Part shown: positions 5,692 through 36,136 of the stretch, in pieces
Layout: each line of letters starts with the position of its first letter
Position numbering within the stretch: the first letter of the stretch is position 1
Assembly (NCBI GenBank): GCA_947589495.1
Contig: CANQAK010000007.1
Location: 1 to 36,590, forward strand
Origin: an uncultured Bacilli bacterium
GTDB taxonomy: Bacteria > Bacillota_I > Bacilli_A > RF39 > UBA660
DNA: 36,590 nt
Reading direction: 5' to 3'
Translations under genes and position numbers: made by a program
The notes under the pieces: generated by a model
What the model saw: the letters and a program-made list of their open reading frames with translations, nothing else
Told to the model about the DNA's origin: nothing
Databases searched by the model: none

Positions 5692-7749
5692 TTATTTTTC
5701 GTAATCAGTTTTATTTGTTGTATTACTACTATTTACAGTAACATTTCTTGTTTGACCAGTTCTTTCCCATCCAGGAATTGATTCTTGAGTACTCCATTTG
5801 TATCTATATTTAGTTACTTGTTTAGTAGTTTTATCAGCCTTTATAGTTTGAGTATTTCCTTTTGTACATCTAGCTGTAGAACCAGCTCCAACTTTAGTAT
5901 AACCATCTGGACAAATGTATGATACATCTTTAGTTGCATTTTTAGTAATTGTTTCACTTGCAATACATTTATTTCCAACTTTAGCTGAATTATTTGGACA
6001 AATAGGATCTACAGTTTTTTCAGAAGAAGTACTATTTGTTTGAGTACATTTAATATTTGTACCACTTCCAGTTTTTGTATAACCATCTGGACAAATAGGA
6101 TCTCCATAAGTAGTTTTAGGAGTTGAGGTATTTTTTATACAAGAATCTCCACTTTTTGTATATCCATCTGGACAAATTGTATTTTTACTATCAACACTTA
6201 TAGTACCAGTTTCTTTTGTACATGTACTACCATTACTATTATATCCACTAGGACAAATAGGACTTGCTGATGTTGACTTAGTAGTAGGTACTGATTTTGT
6301 ACATTTTTTATTTGTACCACTACCACCTTGATCAGTGTAACCACTAGGGCATACATATACAGCAGTTGCCCATACATCAGTATATGATGAACCAGAACAA
6401 TAATATTTATAATATGTTCTTGTACATCCTCTATAAGATGAACATGCTTCAGTATATGAACCACTATACTTACAACCGTTATAATAACTGCCATGATATA
6501 TTGTATAAGATTTGTAATAACTACTTGATGAGTAAACACGACATTTACCATTTCCTAAATTTGTTCCTTTACTACAAGAGTAATATGAGAATACAGGACT
6601 AGCACTTTGAGTAGTGTAACTTGTACTTGATCCAGTACATTTAGTATTTGCACCACTACCACTTTTTGTATATCCACTAGGACAAATAAAGTCTGCAGTT
6701 TCAGTTTTAGTAGTATTTGTTTCTTTAGCACACATTGAATTATTATATTTTGTATAACCATCTGGACAAATAGGACTAGTTGTTTCTTTTTTAGTTTCAT
6801 ATTCTGTTTTAGAACATTTAATATTTGCGCCACTTCCAGTTTTTGTATAACCATCTGGACAAACAGGATCAGTAGTTAAAGTTTTTGATGATACATCAGT
6901 TTTAGTACATTTTATACTAGAACCACTACCAGATTTAGTATAACCATTTGGACAAACAGGATCAACTGTATCACTTGCTTCTTTAATACATTTAGAACTT
7001 CCACCAATACCAACTTTTGTATATCCTTCCGGACATAAATATTTAACATTAGTAGTAACTCTTATATTTGATGAATCATCTTTTATACAAATGCTACCAC
7101 TTTTTGTATATCCACTAGGACAACTATAAACACTTTCAGTAGTACTATAAGCTTGTCTAAATTGATATTCTATAGCAACATCTTTATCTTTACCACTAAT
7201 TTCTTCTTCATTAGTTAAAGTATTTTTACAATTTCCTTGAACACATAATTGATTACATCCAAGTTCTTCTGTAGTTTTAGCAACTTCTTGTCCACAAACT
7301 AGAGTAGTAGACATATGATATGTTCCATTTTCATTAGTTACTAATACGTAACTTGCTTCTGTATCACAAGTTGAATTGTTTTTATATGAAAATGGTATAA
7401 TTAATCCTTTATCAATTAATTCTTGTAAAGTATATTTTAATGAATTACCATTTTCAGGAAGTTCACTAATTAAGAAATATTCTTTAGCAGTATCATGAAA
7501 ATAACGATAATTATTTATATAACTTTCTGAATATGCATCTGGATTAGTTATTGTTCCACTGTTAATAGTACTATTTTGATTATTATTAGAATTATTTGAA
7601 TAATCTACATCTAAATTATTGCTAGGATTAGTATTTCTTGTAAATAACCATACAATAAAGAAGATAACTAAAACAACTAAAACAATTAATAATCCTTTTT
7701 TAATAATATTAGTCCAATCAAATTTTCTTCTAGGTTCTTCTACATACAT
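5692..7749 (-). CDS. Membrane-anchored Cys-rich tandem-repeat protein (CPxGYTK...KC repeats)
   Basis: N-terminal TM (GLLIVLVVLVIFFIVWLF) then roughly a dozen 'xCPDGYTKxGSGxxIKCTKT' units of ~30 aa. Confidence 0.8.
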   Translation of the reverse strand: MYVEEPRRKFDWTNIIKKGLLIVLVVLVIFFIVWLFTRNTNPSNNLDVDYSNNSNNNQNSTINSGTITNPDAYSESYINNYRYFHDTAKEYFLISELPENGNSLKYTLQELIDKGLIIPFSYKNNSTCDTEASYVLVTNENGTYHMSTTLVCGQEVAKTTEELGCNQLCVQGNCKNTLTNEEEISGKDKDVAIEYQFRQAYSTTESVYSCPSGYTKSGSICIKDDSSNIRVTTNVKYLCPEGYTKVGIGGSSKCIKEASDTVDPVCPNGYTKSGSGSSIKCTKTDVSSKTLTTDPVCPDGYTKTGSGANIKCSKTEYETKKETTSPICPDGYTKYNNSMCAKETNTTKTETADFICPSGYTKSGSGANTKCTGSSTSYTTQSASPVFSYYSCSKGTNLGNGKCRVYSSSSYYKSYTIYHGSYYNGCKYSGSYTEACSSYRGCTRTYYKYYCSGSSYTDVWATAVYVCPSGYTDQGGSGTNKKCTKSVPTTKSTSASPICPSGYNSNGSTCTKETGTISVDSKNTICPDGYTKSGDSCIKNTSTPKTTYGDPICPDGYTKTGSGTNIKCTQTNSTSSEKTVDPICPNNSAKVGNKCIASETITKNATKDVSYICPDGYTKVGAGSTARCTKGNTQTIKADKTTKQVTKYRYKWSTQESIPGWERTGQTRNVTVNSSNTTNKTDYEK

Positions 7750-10635: not shown

Positions 10636-12237
10636 ATGAAAATTAAAAATCAAAAAGCTTATGTTATTATATCTTTTATTTTAGTAGTAGAAGTTATATG
10701 TGGCTTTTTAACCTACAAGATGGTTAGTAATAAAAAAGTTAAATTAGATAATGTTGTTCTAATTAATAATAAACAAGAGGAAAATACAGGTCAAATGTTT
10801 GCATTTATGCTTGAAACTAGTAAAGATAGTAATAAATATAATCAATCAGAGGAAAATACATGGCCTGGTAAAGGTTATTCTTTTAATCAAACAAAATCGG
10901 GATGTATGGATTCAGAAGGTCGAAAAATTGATGGAGAATTAAATTATATTGAAGAATCTAATACCGTTACTTTAAAATCTGCAACTACAGTTTTTTGCTA
11001 TTTATATTTTGATAATGAAGATGACTTGCCAGTAGTCGATAAAATAGAAAAAAGTGCAAGTACAGATACTACATTGACAGTAAAAGTTACTGCTCATGAT
11101 GATAATTTTAAAATTACAGAATATTATTATAAAATTGAAGATAAAGCAACAAGTATTGCTTTGACATCAACATTAGAAACAAATGATTTTGAAAAGGATA
11201 CTAGTAATACACATATTTTTAGTAATGTTAGCAAAGGAAAATCATATAATGTTTCTGTTTATGTAAAAGATGAAAAAGGAAATCAATCAGACACATTAAC
11301 TCAAGAAGTAAGAATGACTCCAGCAGCATTAGAAACTTTGAAAGGCAAATCAGACAGTGGATTAAGTGAAATTTTAGTCGGAGGAATGTATAGGTATCAA
11401 GGAACAGATGTAAATAACTATATATGCTTAAAAGAAGTAGGTCAAGCAAATTGTGAAGATAAAAGCGAAAACATGTATCGAATCATAGGAATCACCCCTG
11501 AAGGAAATATCAAAGTCATAAAACAAACAAAATATAATAAGGGAGGAACAACAACATTTAAATGGAATACAAACTATCATGATAACTCATCATCAAGTAG
11601 TGGTTATTGTGAGAAAAATGGTTGTCCAGAGTGGCCAGAAAGTGATATATATAAAGAATTAAATACAAATAACGATTCATTCTTAAGTAAATTGGCTAGT
11701 GATATACAGAACAAAATAGAAGATTGGGAATGGTATTATGGAGATATAGCATATGATTATGCAAATAAAACAGCAGAAGAAATATATAAAATAGAAATAG
11801 GCCAAGCAAATACACAATATTATGGAAAAACATCATCAAATACAAATTTAGTAACAGATCAAAAATGGCAAAAAATGAATAAAACAGCCAAAATAGGATT
11901 AATATATTTACATGATTATTATTACCAATCAACATCAAATAACTGTCATTATAATAACAATACATATACACAATGTAAAGAAGGAGGCTGGATGCACATA
12001 TCAAAAAATAATAGTTCATTATCTGGTAACGAGCAATATGAATGGACCATGTCGCGTATAGGTCGGCATAGTAGCTCAGGTCCTTACTTCTTTGCGTGGA
12101 GTGTGATTTCGAGCGGCAATGTCAACCACAACTACTTGAACGCTACGTTTGCGGTTCGCCCAGTCTTCTATCTGAAGTCTAATGTAGAATTAGAAGGAGA
12201 AGGAACAACAAAAAGTCCATTCTACATAAAAAGTTAG
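10636..12237 (+). CDS. DGR target protein 1 (N-terminally anchored, FN3/Ig-like segment, C-terminal ligand-binding-like domain carrying VR1)
   Basis: N-terminal TM, C-terminal '...MYRIIGITPEGNIKVIKQTKY...EWTMSRIGRHSSSGPYFFAWSVISSGNVNHNYLNATFAVRPVFYLKS'. C-terminal coding segment matches TR with A-only substitutions. Confidence 0.92.
   Translation: MKIKNQKAYVIISFILVVEVICGFLTYKMVSNKKVKLDNVVLINNKQEENTGQMFAFMLETSKDSNKYNQSEENTWPGKGYSFNQTKSGCMDSEGRKIDGELNYIEESNTVTLKSATTVFCYLYFDNEDDLPVVDKIEKSASTDTTLTVKVTAHDDNFKITEYYYKIEDKATSIALTSTLETNDFEKDTSNTHIFSNVSKGKSYNVSVYVKDEKGNQSDTLTQEVRMTPAALETLKGKSDSGLSEILVGGMYRYQGTDVNNYICLKEVGQANCEDKSENMYRIIGITPEGNIKVIKQTKYNKGGTTTFKWNTNYHDNSSSSSGYCEKNGCPEWPESDIYKELNTNNDSFLSKLASDIQNKIEDWEWYYGDIAYDYANKTAEEIYKIEIGQANTQYYGKTSSNTNLVTDQKWQKMNKTAKIGLIYLHDYYYQSTSNNCHYNNNTYTQCKEGGWMHISKNNSSLSGNEQYEWTMSRIGRHSSSGPYFFAWSVISSGNVNHNYLNATFAVRPVFYLKSNVELEGEGTTKSPFYIKS
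12051..12163 (+). repeat. DGR variable repeat VR1 (113 bp) ending at IMH-like CGCCCAGtcttctat
   Basis: Hand alignment to 12374-12486: same length, 15 mismatches, every one at a TR adenine. Confidence 0.95.
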
Positions 12238-12291: not shown

Positions 12292-12326
12292 AACCCTCAT
12301 TGATTTTAAGCAATGAGGGTTTTAAA
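12292..12326 (+). terminator. Probable intrinsic terminator after target gene 1
   Basis: AACCCTCATTG-attttaag-CAATGAGGGTT, 11-bp perfect stem, followed by TTAAAAT. Confidence 0.7.
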
Positions 12327-12342
12327 ATATTTGCATTATTGA

Positions 12343-12348
12343 TATAAT
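12343..12348 (+). promoter_or_regulatory. Possible -10 (TATAAT) for the TR RNA
   Basis: TATAAT 26 bp upstream of TR start, just after a terminator; no strong -35 at ideal spacing. Confidence 0.4.
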
Positions 12349-12373
12349 AAAAATAGGTAATCTTGAATAAGAA

Positions 12374-12486
12374 GTCGCGTATAGGTCGGAATAGTAGCTC
12401 AAGTACTAACTTCAATGCGTGGAATGTGAATTCGAACGGCAATGTCAACAACAACAACTTGAACAATACGAATGCGGTTCGCCCAG
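12374..12486 (+). repeat. DGR template repeat (TR), 113 bp, Asn-codon (AAC/AAT) rich, followed by IMH*-like cgcccagCCCACTAT
   Basis: Non-coding intergenic copy of the VR; holds A where VR1 has C/G/T; diverges from the VR flank directly after CGCCCAG (cccactat vs tcttctat). Confidence 0.95.
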
Positions 12487-12576
12487 CCCACTATAACTTG
12501 AAAGATAATATGGTTACGGCTATATTTTTGGGAAGATAGAGGACAAAGATTATCTAGGAATTTATTCCAAAGTGAA

Positions 12577-12627
12577 AACGGAGATGATATGTTTTACGAA
12601 ACAATCTATTAACTCCGTTATTTTTTT
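12577..12627 (+). terminator. Hairpin with T-tract ending TR transcript
   Basis: AACGGAG...CTCCGTT then ATTTTTTT. Confidence 0.65.
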
Positions 12628-12762
12628 GCAAGTAAACTTAGTTGCAGTACCATAATTTAGCATGCTATAATATTTATTAGGATAGGAAGTGATAAAGAAG
12701 AAGAAAATTAATAGATAGAATTATGAGACATGCGATAAAATAGATAGAAAGTAGTAATATAG

Positions 12763-13149
12763 GTGGTCAAAATAAAAAAAGAGTTAATTGAACTCAGAAA
12801 ATCTGGCAAATTTTATAATACTTTTGGTGATGATGCGATAATTTTACATTACCTAATGGGTTACAGAATAGTGGCTGAAAAGGGTGGCGTTGGTTTTCCT
12901 GAAACAGCATATAATAAAGTTATTAATGCTTTAGAAGATGCTGAAATATCATATGTTGTATATGAAAAAGAAGAAGTAATTGCAGAAAAAAACTTCAAGA
13001 AATTAAACGATTATAAAAATGTTTTAAAAAAAGGAATAAATGAATTATCGTTAGAAGAAAGATTTAATAAAATTGAAAAGAAAATTCGTGGGTTAAATCA
13101 AAAAGAATTAGACTATGTTCTTGAAGTAATAGAAAATGCAATATCATAG
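12763..13149 (+). CDS. MutS domain I-like DGR accessory protein (MSL-like)
   Basis: 'SGKFYNTFGDDAIILHYLMGYRIVAEKGGVGFPETAYNKVINALEDAEISYVVYEK' resembles the MutS N-terminal mismatch-binding domain (GDFYE.F..DA...AGVP...); GTG start; overlaps next ORF. Confidence 0.72.
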   Translation: MVKIKKELIELRKSGKFYNTFGDDAIILHYLMGYRIVAEKGGVGFPETAYNKVINALEDAEISYVVYEKEEVIAEKNFKKLNDYKNVLKKGINELSLEERFNKIEKKIRGLNQKELDYVLEVIENAIS

Positions 13150-13492
13150 TGAAAAATTCTTAATTGTTAAAAATATAAAAAAATTTATTTTAGGATTAGA
13201 AACATTATTAGTTAATTTTCCCAGAAAGGAATTTTTAACTAAAGATATGGTTTATAAAGATGCTTTAAAAATCCTGGAATTAATTTATGTAGCAAATGAA
13301 GTAGAAGATATAGTTGAAAAAAGAAAAATTCAAGTAAAAATATTAAGTAAAATTAATATGTTGGATTTTTATTTAGAAAGAGCTTATAAAAGAAAATATA
13401 TAAATGAAAAACAATGTTTAGCTAAATCAAATGAACTTGAACAAATTACTAAAATGATATATAAATGGATTAAAAATGAAAGAGTATGTTAA
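13136..13492 (+). CDS. avd: Avd-like four-helix-bundle DGR accessory protein
   Basis: 118-aa helical protein 'IKKFILGLETLLVNFPRKEFLTKDMVYKDALKILELIYVANEV...KRKIQVKILSKINMLDFYLERAYKRKYINEKQCLAKSNELEQITKMIYKWIK', directly upstream of and overlapping the RT. Confidence 0.82.
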   Translation: MQYHSEKFLIVKNIKKFILGLETLLVNFPRKEFLTKDMVYKDALKILELIYVANEVEDIVEKRKIQVKILSKINMLDFYLERAYKRKYINEKQCLAKSNELEQITKMIYKWIKNERVC

Positions 13493-14603
13493 TTTAGAAG
13501 TTTTATTAAATTTATTTGAATTAGAAATATCAAAAAATGTTAAAAATAAACATAAAGTATACATGTTTGAAAAAAATAAGTTTCAAAATATTAATAGAAT
13601 TATTAATGTATTAAGAACTAATAACTATAATGGTGGTAAATATAATATTTTTTTAATAAAAGAGCCAAAACATCGTATAGTAATGGCTTTAGATATTAGT
13701 GATAAAATAATTAATCATTTTATAGCAAGATATGTTTTAGAAAGAAAATTATCTAAATATTTAGATATACGTAATGTTGCAACTAGAAAAAATATGGGTA
13801 CAGATTATGGAATTAAATTATTAAAAAAATATTTAGAACTTAATAAAAAATATGATAATTTTTATATATTAAAATTAGATATAAGTAAATATTTTTATTC
13901 TATTGATCATGAAGTTTTAAAAAATATGATTAAAGATAAATTAGATGATGAAGAATTTAATATGGTAAGTATTATTTTAAATAGTACTAATCAAGAATAT
14001 ATTAATAAAAAAATTGCTAATATTAAAGAAAAATATCTAAATTTACATCCTGAATATAAAAAAGAAATGGATGCTTTACCATATTATTATGAGGGTAAAG
14101 GATTACCCATAGGAAATATGACAAGTCAATTTCTTTCAATATTTTATTTATATGAATTAGATCATTATATAGTTCATGATTTACATATTAAACATTATAT
14201 AAGATATATGGATGATTTTGTTTTAATTCATCATGATAAAAAAGTATTAGAAAATGCTAAAAAAGTTATTGAAGATATACTTAATAAAAAATATAAGTTG
14301 AAACTTAATGCAAAAAAGACTAAAATAGTTAACGCTAAAGAAGGATTTTCTTTTTTAGGATATACTTATAAAATAGTAAATAAAAAAACTATAGTTAAAT
14401 TAAAAAAAGAAGCATATGAAAAAATAAAAAAGAAAGTTAAAAAAGTATATTATATGTATGAATCTGGTTATTTAGATTTTAATAGTGCTTTTTGTTCAAT
14501 TATGTCTTATTGGTATAATAGAAAATATGGTAGTCAAATGAAAGTAAGAAGAGCCATTAATAAATATTGGTTTTATAAAGAACATCATGCGTGTAAAGAA
14601 TAG
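13476..14603 (+). CDS. DGR reverse transcriptase
   Basis: 'LPIGNMTSQFLSIFYLYELDHYI' (DGR-type SQ motif) and 'IRYMDDFVLI' catalytic motif; 'LDISKYFYSIDH'; 375 aa with no maturase/endonuclease extension. Confidence 0.96.
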   Translation: MKEYVNLEVLLNLFELEISKNVKNKHKVYMFEKNKFQNINRIINVLRTNNYNGGKYNIFLIKEPKHRIVMALDISDKIINHFIARYVLERKLSKYLDIRNVATRKNMGTDYGIKLLKKYLELNKKYDNFYILKLDISKYFYSIDHEVLKNMIKDKLDDEEFNMVSIILNSTNQEYINKKIANIKEKYLNLHPEYKKEMDALPYYYEGKGLPIGNMTSQFLSIFYLYELDHYIVHDLHIKHYIRYMDDFVLIHHDKKVLENAKKVIEDILNKKYKLKLNAKKTKIVNAKEGFSFLGYTYKIVNKKTIVKLKKEAYEKIKKKVKKVYYMYESGYLDFNSAFCSIMSYWYNRKYGSQMKVRRAINKYWFYKEHHACKE

Positions 14604-14874
14604 ATATGTATTTATTAAAAGAACTTTTCCTAATACAATAGTAATTTTTGAAAAAAATAATGAATATAAAAGTTATGGTCAAGATAAAGAATTATTAGAA
14701 TATATAAAATTTAAAAAGTTAAATAATTTAAATAAATTAAAAATTAATTATATTGTAGTTAGGAATATGACTATTGTAAAACATGAAATATTTGAAAATA
14801 GTATGTATCAAATCTATTATACAAGATTTAATTTATTTAAATTAGTTAATTTAATTCGTCAACGAAGACGTTAA
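14587..14874 (+). CDS. Small basic ORF overlapping 3' end of DGR RT; unknown function
   Basis: 95 aa, start overlaps RT stop by 17 bp; RQRRR C-terminus; no family recognised. Confidence 0.6.
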   Translation: MRVKNRYVFIKRTFPNTIVIFEKNNEYKSYGQDKELLEYIKFKKLNNLNKLKINYIVVRNMTIVKHEIFENSMYQIYYTRFNLFKLVNLIRQRRR

Positions 14875-17234: not shown

Positions 17235-19427
17235 GTGAATTATATAATGGAGAAAAGAAAAACAACAATAATATTTACAATTGGAGTAATGTTGATAGTA
17301 AGTACCTTTTTAATATGTCATAAACATACGGTATATCAAACACAACTAGATGAAGTAAAGTTAAAAGATGTAGTAAATAAAGAACAAAATAATATGTTTG
17401 CCATAATGTTACAAGATGAAAATGGTGAATATAAACAAACTAATGATAGTAATTTTCCAACAGATGGATATAATTATAATGCAGAAAAATCAGGATGTAT
17501 AGATTCTAAAGGATTAGCAGTAGAAAATGTATTAACATATACAAATAAAAAATTTAGTGTAAGAACAAATAAAGCAGTATATTGTTATGTATATTTTGAT
17601 AAAAGTAATGCAGAAGAATTATTAGAGCAATTAAAAAAGAGCGGTGGATTAAGTGATGCACCAGTTGGAGGAATGTACCGATACCAAGGAACAAATGCCC
17701 AAGTAAATAATTATTTATGTTTAGAAGGAAAATGTTCTTCTGGATCAGATGATATGTACAGGATTATAGGAGTAACACCAGAAGGAAATATCAAAGTGAT
17801 AAAACAAACAAGATATGGAAGTACACATGCATGGAATACAAAATATAGTGATGCCTCCTCGCCAACTAATATTTATTGTGGGACAAGTGGATGTCCCGAA
17901 TGGCCAAATAGTGATATATATAAAGAATTAAATACAAATAATGACTCATTTTTAAATAAATTATCTAATAAAATACAAGACAAAATAGAAGAATGGGATT
18001 GGTGGTATGGAGATATAGAATATAATTATGCAAAAAATTTAACAGGAGAAAATTTATATCAAATAGAAACAGGAGGAGAAGATAGTCAGTATTATTCAAA
18101 AACACAAACAGGACAAAGTATACAAACAGGTCCATGGCAAAAAATGAGTAATAAAGCCAAAATAGGATTAATATATTTACATGATTATTATTATCAAACA
18201 ACAACATCAACCAATTGTCATCTTAGTAGTTCAACATATACACAGTGTTTAAACAATGGATGGATGCATATGCTAAATAATGAAGGAGCAACATCATATA
18301 ACGAGCAATATGAATGGACTATGACACGTGTAGGTCGAGAGAATAACTCAAGTACTGACTTCCGTGCGTGGTTTGTGAGTAGGAACGGCGAAGTCAGTAC
18401 ACAAAGTTTAAATAGTTCGTATGCGATACGCCCAGTCTTCTATTTAAAGAATAATATAACATTATATGGAAGTGGAACAGTAAATGATCCATTCAGATTA
18501 ACCGAACCAACAGAACAAGAAAACACATTAAGAAGTAAAGATACAACACAAGCTTTAAGTCAAACTTTAGTCGGAGGAATGTATAGATATCAAGGAACAA
18601 ATAATGTAGTAAAAAATAATTATATATGTTTAGGAAGTTTAAATGATATAAATTGTGGAGATAAAAGTAATGAAATGTACCGAATCATAGGAATCACCCC
18701 TGAAGGAAATATCAAAGTAATAAAACAAACAAGATATCAAAAAGGAAGCACAAGTGGATTTGCATGGAATACAGCATATAATGCATCAAGTAGTGCAAAT
18801 AGTACAGATAGATGTGATACAAATAATGGATGCCCAGAATGGCCACAAGCAGAAATATATAATACTCTAAATACGGATTTCTATAATAGTTTAAATAGTG
18901 AAATAAAAGGAAAAATAGAAGAATGGAACTATATGTATGGAGATATAAGTCATGATTTAGTAAATAGTGACCATATAACAGCAGAACAAGCATATAAAAT
19001 AGAAAGTGGACAAGAAAATACAAAATATTGGGAACATCCATCAGTAAGTTATATAGAAAATACAAAATGGACAAAAAGTCAACCATCAAAAATAGCATTA
19101 ATGTATATACATGATTATGCATATTCGGGAAGTACAACAGGACATGAAACAAGTTGTAGAACAGACTATGATACAACATGTAAAGGAAGCTGGATGCATG
19201 AAACTAATAATGATAGTAATACATATCACGAATGGACCATGTCGCGTCTAGGTCGGGCTAGTAGCTCGAGCGCTACCTTCGGTGCGTGGGTTGTGCTTTC
19301 AAGTGGCCAAGTCGACAGCCCCTACTTGACCAATACGCGTGCGGTTCGCCCAGTCTTCTATCTAACGTCCGATATAGAACTTGGAGGAGCAGGATCAACT
19401 TCTGATCCATTCTACATAGCAAATTAG
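17235..19427 (+). CDS. DGR target protein 2, tandemly duplicated target domain with VR2 and VR3
   Basis: N-terminal TM; two copies of 'GGMYRYQG...MYRIIGxTPEGNIKVIKQTRY...CPEWP...EWTMxRxGR...AxRPVFYL'. Likely true start ATG at 17247. Confidence 0.92.
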   Translation: MNYIMEKRKTTIIFTIGVMLIVSTFLICHKHTVYQTQLDEVKLKDVVNKEQNNMFAIMLQDENGEYKQTNDSNFPTDGYNYNAEKSGCIDSKGLAVENVLTYTNKKFSVRTNKAVYCYVYFDKSNAEELLEQLKKSGGLSDAPVGGMYRYQGTNAQVNNYLCLEGKCSSGSDDMYRIIGVTPEGNIKVIKQTRYGSTHAWNTKYSDASSPTNIYCGTSGCPEWPNSDIYKELNTNNDSFLNKLSNKIQDKIEEWDWWYGDIEYNYAKNLTGENLYQIETGGEDSQYYSKTQTGQSIQTGPWQKMSNKAKIGLIYLHDYYYQTTTSTNCHLSSSTYTQCLNNGWMHMLNNEGATSYNEQYEWTMTRVGRENNSSTDFRAWFVSRNGEVSTQSLNSSYAIRPVFYLKNNITLYGSGTVNDPFRLTEPTEQENTLRSKDTTQALSQTLVGGMYRYQGTNNVVKNNYICLGSLNDINCGDKSNEMYRIIGITPEGNIKVIKQTRYQKGSTSGFAWNTAYNASSSANSTDRCDTNNGCPEWPQAEIYNTLNTDFYNSLNSEIKGKIEEWNYMYGDISHDLVNSDHITAEQAYKIESGQENTKYWEHPSVSYIENTKWTKSQPSKIALMYIHDYAYSGSTTGHETSCRTDYDTTCKGSWMHETNNDSNTYHEWTMSRLGRASSSSATFGAWVVLSSGQVDSPYLTNTRAVRPVFYLTSDIELGGAGSTSDPFYIAN
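18323..18435 (+). repeat. VR2, decayed 113-bp variable repeat
   Basis: Codon-by-codon alignment to TR without gaps; about 33 mismatches, ~16 at TR A and ~17 at non-A. Confidence 0.8.
19241..19353 (+). repeat. VR3, 113-bp variable repeat with IMH CGCCCAGtcttctatct
   Basis: Gap-free alignment to TR: 26 mismatches, 22 at TR A; IMH and following tcttctatct identical to VR1. Confidence 0.93.
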
Positions 19428-34799: not shown

Positions 34800-34868
34800 A
34801 ACCTTAAGAAATAGAAGAGTTAATAAATATGAGTAAGTTATTAACAAAAAGAAAAGGTGAATTATATA

Positions 34869-36136
34869 ATGGAGAAGAAAAAGATAATAGTGTTAGCACT
34901 TACAGTAGTATTAATAATGTCAATATATATGACATATAGAACATATGAAAATAAACCAAAAGAATTACCAGAAGAAAAAGAAAAAATAGAAACAAAGAAA
35001 AAACAATTTGCCATGTATATAAAAGAAGGGGATAATTATGTAGAATATCATGGAGATGAGGGAAAAGAAAATTTATTTCCAGAAGGATATAAATTAAATG
35101 AAGAACAAAGTAGATGTGAAGATATAGATGGAAATAAAATAGATGATATAACATTTAATACAGATACAAATAGTATAACAGTAACAAGTAATAAAACTGC
35201 ATATTGTTATTTATATTTTGATAAAGAATTACCTAAAACATTGCAAACACTGCAAAGTAAAGCCAGTAGCGGATTAAGCGAAGGCTTAATTGGAGGAATG
35301 TATAGATATCAAGGAACAAATGATGTAGTAAAAAATAATTATATATGTTTAAAAGAAGCAGGACAAGCAAATTGTACAGATAAAAGTGATAACATGTATC
35401 GAATCATAGGAATCACAGAAGAAGGAAATATCAAAGTCATGAAACAAACAAAATATACAGATAGTGATGGTACAGATAAATTTGCATGGAGCACGAATGT
35501 TACTGATTCACAATGTGGAGAAAATGGTGTCCAGAATGGCCAAACAGCGATATATATCAAAGACTTAATGGAAACAATGGATTTATAAGTACATTAAATG
35601 AAAATATTAAAAATAAAATAGAAGCACAAAACTGGTGGTATGGAGATATGCATAATGATTTTGTAGGAACATTGAGTGCAGATGAAGTATACAAAGTAGA
35701 GACAGGACAAATGGATACAAAATACTATGGACATAGTTCAAGTGATAAAGCAGAAGTAACAAATCAAAGATGGACAAAAATGGAAGAAAAAGCCAATATA
35801 GGATTAATATATTTACATGATTATTATTACCAAGCAAAACAAGAAAGCTGTCATAATACAAAAAATAGTAATTATAAAGATTGCATAAATCAAGGATGGA
35901 TGCACATGAAAAATAACGGAGGAGGATCGTTAGATTACGAATGGACCATAACACGGTCCGGTCGATCGAGCGATATAGGAATTGGTTTTGGTGCGTGGTT
36001 AATCAGGAGTTATGGAAATAACGCTGCCAACTCCATGGAAGGAAGTGAGACAATTCGTCCGGTCTTCTATCTACAGTCTACTATAGAATTAGGTGGAGCA
36101 GGATCAACTTCTGAACCATTTTATATAAAAAATTAG
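34869..36136 (+). pseudogene. DGR target protein 3, frameshifted (ORFs 34857-35588 and 35513-36136), carries VR4
   Basis: Same domain as targets 1 and 2. A single T is missing in 'gaaaatggTGTccagaatgg' (35527-35530) relative to 'aaaaatggTTGTccagagtgg' of target 1; reading frame then continues to the C-terminus in the other frame. Confidence 0.8.
35950..36062 (+). repeat. VR4, strongly diverged 113-bp variable repeat
   Basis: 37 codons as in TR, keeps GCGTGG and a degenerate IMH (CGTCCGGTCTTCTATCTACAGTCTA vs CGCCCAGTCTTCTATCTGAAGTCTA). Confidence 0.7.

Follow-up and report, generated by a model that had tools for sequence, protein, structure and literature searches.

The DGR locus and its neighbours

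The window, that is, the whole stretch of 36,590 nucleotides analysed here (G+C 25%), is contig C7 of genome G000, a MAG of 1.11 Mb in 51 contigs that is 88% complete. The host is a gut bacterium; its related records are MAGs of Bacilli, of which one came from goat rectum and most others bear the name 'Lapin'. A chromosomal DGR spans about 12321-14603 and consists of a template repeat (TR), a MutS-I-like gene, an Avd-like gene and a reverse transcriptase (RT; Table 1). In DGR-type RTs the motif [IVL]GxxxSQ replaces QGxxxSP, and the IGNMTSQ of the 375-aa RT conforms to this pattern. Its best match among solved structures is 8ub7 (E 3.3e-23), which we take to be the RT of BPP-1. The Avd-like gene is kept beside the RT in relatives, and both its position and its conservation fit Avd. 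Directly before it lies the 128-aa MutS-I-like gene, present in 17 of 18 related RT loci, an arrangement suggestive of a mismatch-recognition module beside a mutagenic RT. A 95-aa ORF with no family match (14587-14874) overlaps the end of the RT gene and is conserved after the RT in most relatives.

The DGR gene order recurs in relatives and adjoins miaA in the nearest ones, and because of this recurring order and neighbourhood we consider the DGR to be a vertically inherited cellular element, not a prophage. A phage origin was rejected on the further ground that viral_contigs contains no exact match to the TR core, the locus being syntenic across the genus next to miaA.

Table 1. Positions of DGR components, repeats and target genes in the window
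Feature	Coordinates	Strand	Evidence
Cis target gene, 533 aa	10636..12237	+	ORF list
VR1, cis variable repeat in ORF 10636-12237	12051..12163	+	15/37 A, 0/76 non-A mismatches to TR
Promoter-like site of TR RNA (TTTAAA - 16 - TGnTATAAT)	12321..12348	+	TATAAT in same place before other TRs of the genus
Template repeat (TR)	12374..12486	+	alignment with all VRs
IMH* at TR 3' end (GCGGTTCGCCCAGCCCACTAT)	12474..12494	+	3/21 bases differ from IMH
Conserved 24-nt 3' core of TR RNA (GAAGATAGAGGACAAAGATTATCT, GAAGATAGARGACAAAGATTATCT)	12532..12555	+	genus-wide conservation, covarying helices
Terminal hairpin AACGGAG...CTCCGTT then T run, probable terminator of TR RNA	12577..12627	+	compensatory changes across genus
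128-aa protein with MutS domain I match	12763..13149	+	PF01624 E 4.2e-5, above gathering score
Avd-like accessory protein	13136..13492	+	NF033474 E 7.6e-9, PF22296 E 7.6e-6, both below curated cut-offs
DGR reverse transcriptase, 375 aa, motifs IGNMTSQ and YMDD	13476..14603	+	RVT_1 E 1.2e-16
Target gene, 730 aa, N-terminal hydrophobic anchor, two tandem VR-bearing domains	17235..19427	+	ORF list, repeats
VR2, older variable repeat, first domain of VR3's gene	18323..18435	+	16/37 A, 17/76 non-A mismatches to TR
VR3, variable repeat, C-terminal end of tandem target gene	19241..19353	+	22/37 A, 4/76 non-A mismatches to TR
IMH of VR3 (GCGGTTCGCCCAGTCTTCTAT)	19341..19361	+	equals that of VR1; silent sites conserved across 56 copies
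Degenerate VR-like region in another target gene	35950..36062	+	25/37 A, 38/76 non-A mismatches to TR

The product of the 730-aa target gene has a weak match to DUF6273 (E 0.002). A C-type lectin fold that holds the VR is a mark of DGRs; here, in a structure model of the target domain (mean pLDDT 63), the VR itself was poorly modelled, and no PDB match was found at E <1. Judging by their N-terminal hydrophobic segment, the targets are probably anchored surface proteins with C-terminal tips diversified as a repertoire. The target gene at 34857-36136 has an interrupted frame and is read as two overlapping ORFs (34857-35588 and 35513-36136), which reflects either a pseudogene or an assembly error. 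On the minus strand, 5692-7749 encodes a 685-aa anchored protein with many Cys-rich repeats of the CPxGYTKxGxG type.

VR3 and its IMH

According to the original prediction, VR3 lies in another gene about 7 kb from the TR and was written by retrohoming in trans. The distance is 6.75 kb, VR3 is indeed in a separate gene, and ungapped alignment returned the 26 mismatches previously counted, 22 of them at the 37 adenines of the TR and four at its 76 other bases (Fisher p = 4.7e-10 for adenine bias). The identity of its IMH with that of VR1 was confirmed as well, the 3' block GCGGTTCGCCCAGTCTTCTATCT being common to VR1 and VR3 where the TR has GCGGTTCGCCCAGCCCACTATAA, with three differences within the 21-nt IMH. 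Retrohoming in trans into VR3 is well supported, as it best accounts for the adenine-restricted differences and the preserved IMH. The four non-A differences are T31C, G61A, C64T and T70A, and three of them do fall in Ser codons and are synonymous: T31C and G61A are silent Ser changes, and C64T is a silent third base in a codon that now reads Ser. T70A is not silent, changing the codon from AAT to CAA. VR2, which lies 918 bp upstream of VR3 in the same gene and has a weaker adenine bias relative to the TR (p = 0.03), was not part of the earlier finding, nor were about 53 more copies genome-wide.

Across 56 copies of the repeat the IMH carries 0-6 mismatches, and its codons (R-P-V-F-Y) are spelled against the codon habit of the same proteins, as evidenced by CGC (30/56 at the IMH vs 1/151 in the background), GTC (45/56 vs 20/276) and TTC (49/56 vs 29/130). 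This conservation of silent sites is a constraint on the DNA of the kind expected of a homing site, and it suggests that nearly the whole family is a target now or was one until recently. A hairpin 3' of the VRs was not found, the longest stem in the next 90 nt averaging 4.6 bp vs 4.4 bp in shuffles.

A family of targets across the genome

In genome G000 we find a single RT, a single detected TR and some 56 VR-bearing domains; since the assembly is a fragmented MAG, the number of copies and the TR count of one are approximate. The TR used as query on its own genome matched 14 places including itself; apart from the TR and VR3 these comprise 12 places with TR-like DNA, mostly on other contigs. 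A protein search with the VR3 domain gave 64 matches, 56 of which have a VR that can be aligned to the TR, and several targets carry two VRs in tandem. Non-A mismatches to the TR form a gradient that starts at 0/76 in VR1, continues with 3, 4 and 4 (VR3 being among these) and reaches 51/76, so that VR3 is one of the four copies nearest to the present TR and VR1 is the only copy that agrees with it at every non-A site. Twelve copies, spread over several contigs, differ at no more than 10/76 non-A sites. A further 29 have 11-28 such changes, and in these agreement with the TR is 0.42 at A-sites in codon positions 1-2 vs 0.65 at non-A third codon positions, the reverse of normal coding evolution. 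Two target domains on different contigs (G000:C2:79768-80523 and G000:C3:10757-11515) have near-identical VRs, with 26 non-A differences each and nearly all of these shared, and their resemblance is likely due to recent duplication or conversion between targets.

The probable template of VR3

The 12 VRs closest to the TR have non-A changes in common far beyond expectation, with a sharing of 50 vs a null mean of 19.8 and a maximum of 41 in 5000 permutations that preserve base and codon position. More specifically, C64T is present in 7 of the 12, vs 9/132 C-to-T changes at other C-ending codons (p 3e-5), T31C in four (p 1e-3) and T59C in five. The four changes of VR3 itself recur in other VRs above expectation (P 0.002), and three of them occur together in the copy at C3:33358 and three in that at C4:31283. 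The A-site likeness of VRs sharing C64T is not raised (0.35 vs 0.36 and 0.39), and between marker sites 59 and 64 there is only modest linkage (p 0.035). Since the non-A marks are shared but the A-sites unrelated, the simplest source of the marks is the template, acting in separate writing events, and each of the 12 closest VRs was probably written on its own from a template that differs from the present TR. Certain codons resemble hidden A-sites of another template; codon 20, for instance, is CAG, CGG or CCG in copies with C59. We infer at least one other TR version, either an older form or a second TR that may have been lost or left unassembled.

A search of the assembly, which is 88% complete, did not reveal the TR variant with the four non-A differences that the original prediction had suggested looking for, and the donor TR of VR3 is accordingly a postulated one. 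Two other origins of the marks were considered and rejected. Were the shared C64T due to duplication of a VR that had been written before, A-site identity should be raised, which it is not; truncated cDNA would pile non-A changes at the 5' side, but the 5'/3' contrast disappears when the shared markers are left out (0.058 vs 0.054).

TR genes in sister species

The 3' core of the TR RNA was found in 14 of 38 genomes of the genus (0 in the reversed control). Counts, likewise taken from fragmented metagenome assemblies, are one in G000, 4-13 in eight relatives (G003 6, G008 13, G022 6, G024 4, G026 6, G031 9, G032 4, G037 10), two in G013 and one in four others. Each RT-positive, core-bearing relative has a single close homologue of the query RT, apart from G030, which has two; in the assembly of G037, which has ten cores, the RT was not found. 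Stand-alone TR genes, dispersed or in tandem, occur in these same eight relatives (e.g. L154-L166). In most of 60 TR stretches a conserved leader, TAGGTAATCTTG, is closely preceded by a TATAAT box. The 3' RNA of these stretches contains helices with many compensatory changes, and a hairpin followed by a T run ends most of them. In the RNA model, one helix of the conserved 3' RNA (12474-12640) pairs the IMH* end of the TR with the downstream core.

Different VRs best match different TRs in G003, G008 and G024. L142 has 5/77 non-A mismatches to its best TR vs 12 to the next, L140 has 2/80 to its own, and L170, on a different contig from its TR, has 4/77 non-A and 20/39 A mismatches. These VR-specific matches imply that several TRs are apparently used with one RT, in trans, and the several TR genes held by sister species make a second TR plausible for VR3. 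Mutation of the TRs by themselves was rejected, the A-richness of mismatches among TRs within a genome being no higher than in their 3' RNA part (0.67-0.78 vs 0.61-0.81).

Interpretation and alternatives

We posit that VR3 is very probably a remote target of the DGR at 12321-14603, one of a family written in trans, and that its last full writing came from a related but different TR. A free-standing TR RNA would be reverse-transcribed by the RT with its Avd-like partner, with errors at adenines, and the cDNA would then replace the sequence upstream of the IMH in any family member bearing one. The TR behind the last full writing of VR3 may have been an earlier version or another that is lost or unassembled. 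From the sequences we infer that writing takes place in trans and is still ongoing.

The original prediction had left the four non-A changes to either drift or an older TR version, and their recurrence in other VRs favours an older or different TR. Under drift, the present TR would have written VR3 and later point mutations would account for changes that are only four in number, three of them silent and two running from G/C toward A/T, in an AT-rich genome. T31C opposes this AT bias, however, the same changes recur in other VRs beyond all 5000 permutations, and sets of three marks travel together in two other copies, so that drift seems unlikely. It is similarly doubtful that VR3 is a remnant, last written far in the past and since fallen out of the reach of the DGR: although the C64 of the present TR is missing from VR3 and VR2 in the same gene is clearly older, VR3 belongs to the four of 56 copies nearest the present TR, its frame is open and its IMH is intact.

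Far less credible is an ordinary family of paralogous surface proteins whose tips grew apart through duplication, gene conversion and positive selection, with no remote writing by the DGR. Large families do occur in genus members in which no close RT was found, such as G005 with 44 matches, but paralogous divergence would leave unexplained why differences are adenine-restricted relative to a non-coding TR, why A-sites are unrelated between copies sharing non-A markers and why the IMH is conserved at silent sites. Genomes with an RT also have larger families (median 35.5 vs 18, p 0.003; completeness and relatedness uncontrolled). Writing in trans from a related TR is thus our preferred reading for VR3. 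With rather less confidence, we favour a genus-wide network in which one RT locus at a fixed chromosomal position works with several free-standing genes for TR RNA and on dozens of homologous targets, non-A sites record the last template, and the template of VR3 is no longer seen in the genome.

Relation to known DGRs

The DGR described here is an extreme variant in its architecture, cellular and vertically inherited, with known chemistry. It resembles that of Bordetella phage BPP-1 in its RT, Avd-like gene, TR, IMH vs IMH* and adenine-specific changes; the BPP-1 system belongs to a phage, has a cis target and needs a GC-rich hairpin shortly after the VR (PMC3240598), of a kind not found here. 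The Treponema denticola DGR, with one RT, one TR and seven dispersed target genes (PMC4891356), is similar in that one TR serves several remote VRs in surface proteins, here probable ones. In isolate SP32 one remote VR is closer to a different TR type than to the resident TR (PMC4891356), which parallels VR3. Unlike in T. denticola, there are tandem double-VR targets here, the TR is multiplied in sister species, and seven targets compare with about 56 VR copies in 1.1 Mb.

In Thiohalocapsa PB-PSB1, 15 targets with 21 VRs and nine DGR loci have been described and activity in trans inferred (PMC10907252). Remote targets there match the TR of another locus at all non-adenine sites and VRs within one gene are unequal in activity, as here; its DGRs are of four classes linked to conflict systems, in contrast to the lone RT locus here and the single family of homologous anchored proteins. 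In cyanobacteria, where 21 genomes together contain 76 remote targets, dispersed paralogs likewise show TR homology at gene 3' ends, but the targets are few per genome on average, mostly predicted to be cytosolic, and have an established C-type lectin fold (PMC7517822). A 2019 survey reported 91 TR-VR pairs in one Pseudomonas, with few A-to-N substitutions and in one giant adhesin (PMC6642488), and the method of the largest metagenomic DGR survey is, by its own statement, blind to remote targets (PMC8144416).

Among open-licence literature, dispersed TR genes are provisionally new, and multi-target cellular DGRs reach about seven well-supported targets per TR at most. Non-adenine sites provide a means of assigning targets to the templates that wrote them, and of ordering these events roughly. 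About 56 targets in 1.1 Mb, and as many as 13 TR genes alongside one RT in sister species, mean that estimates of how far a single DGR reaches may be much too low.
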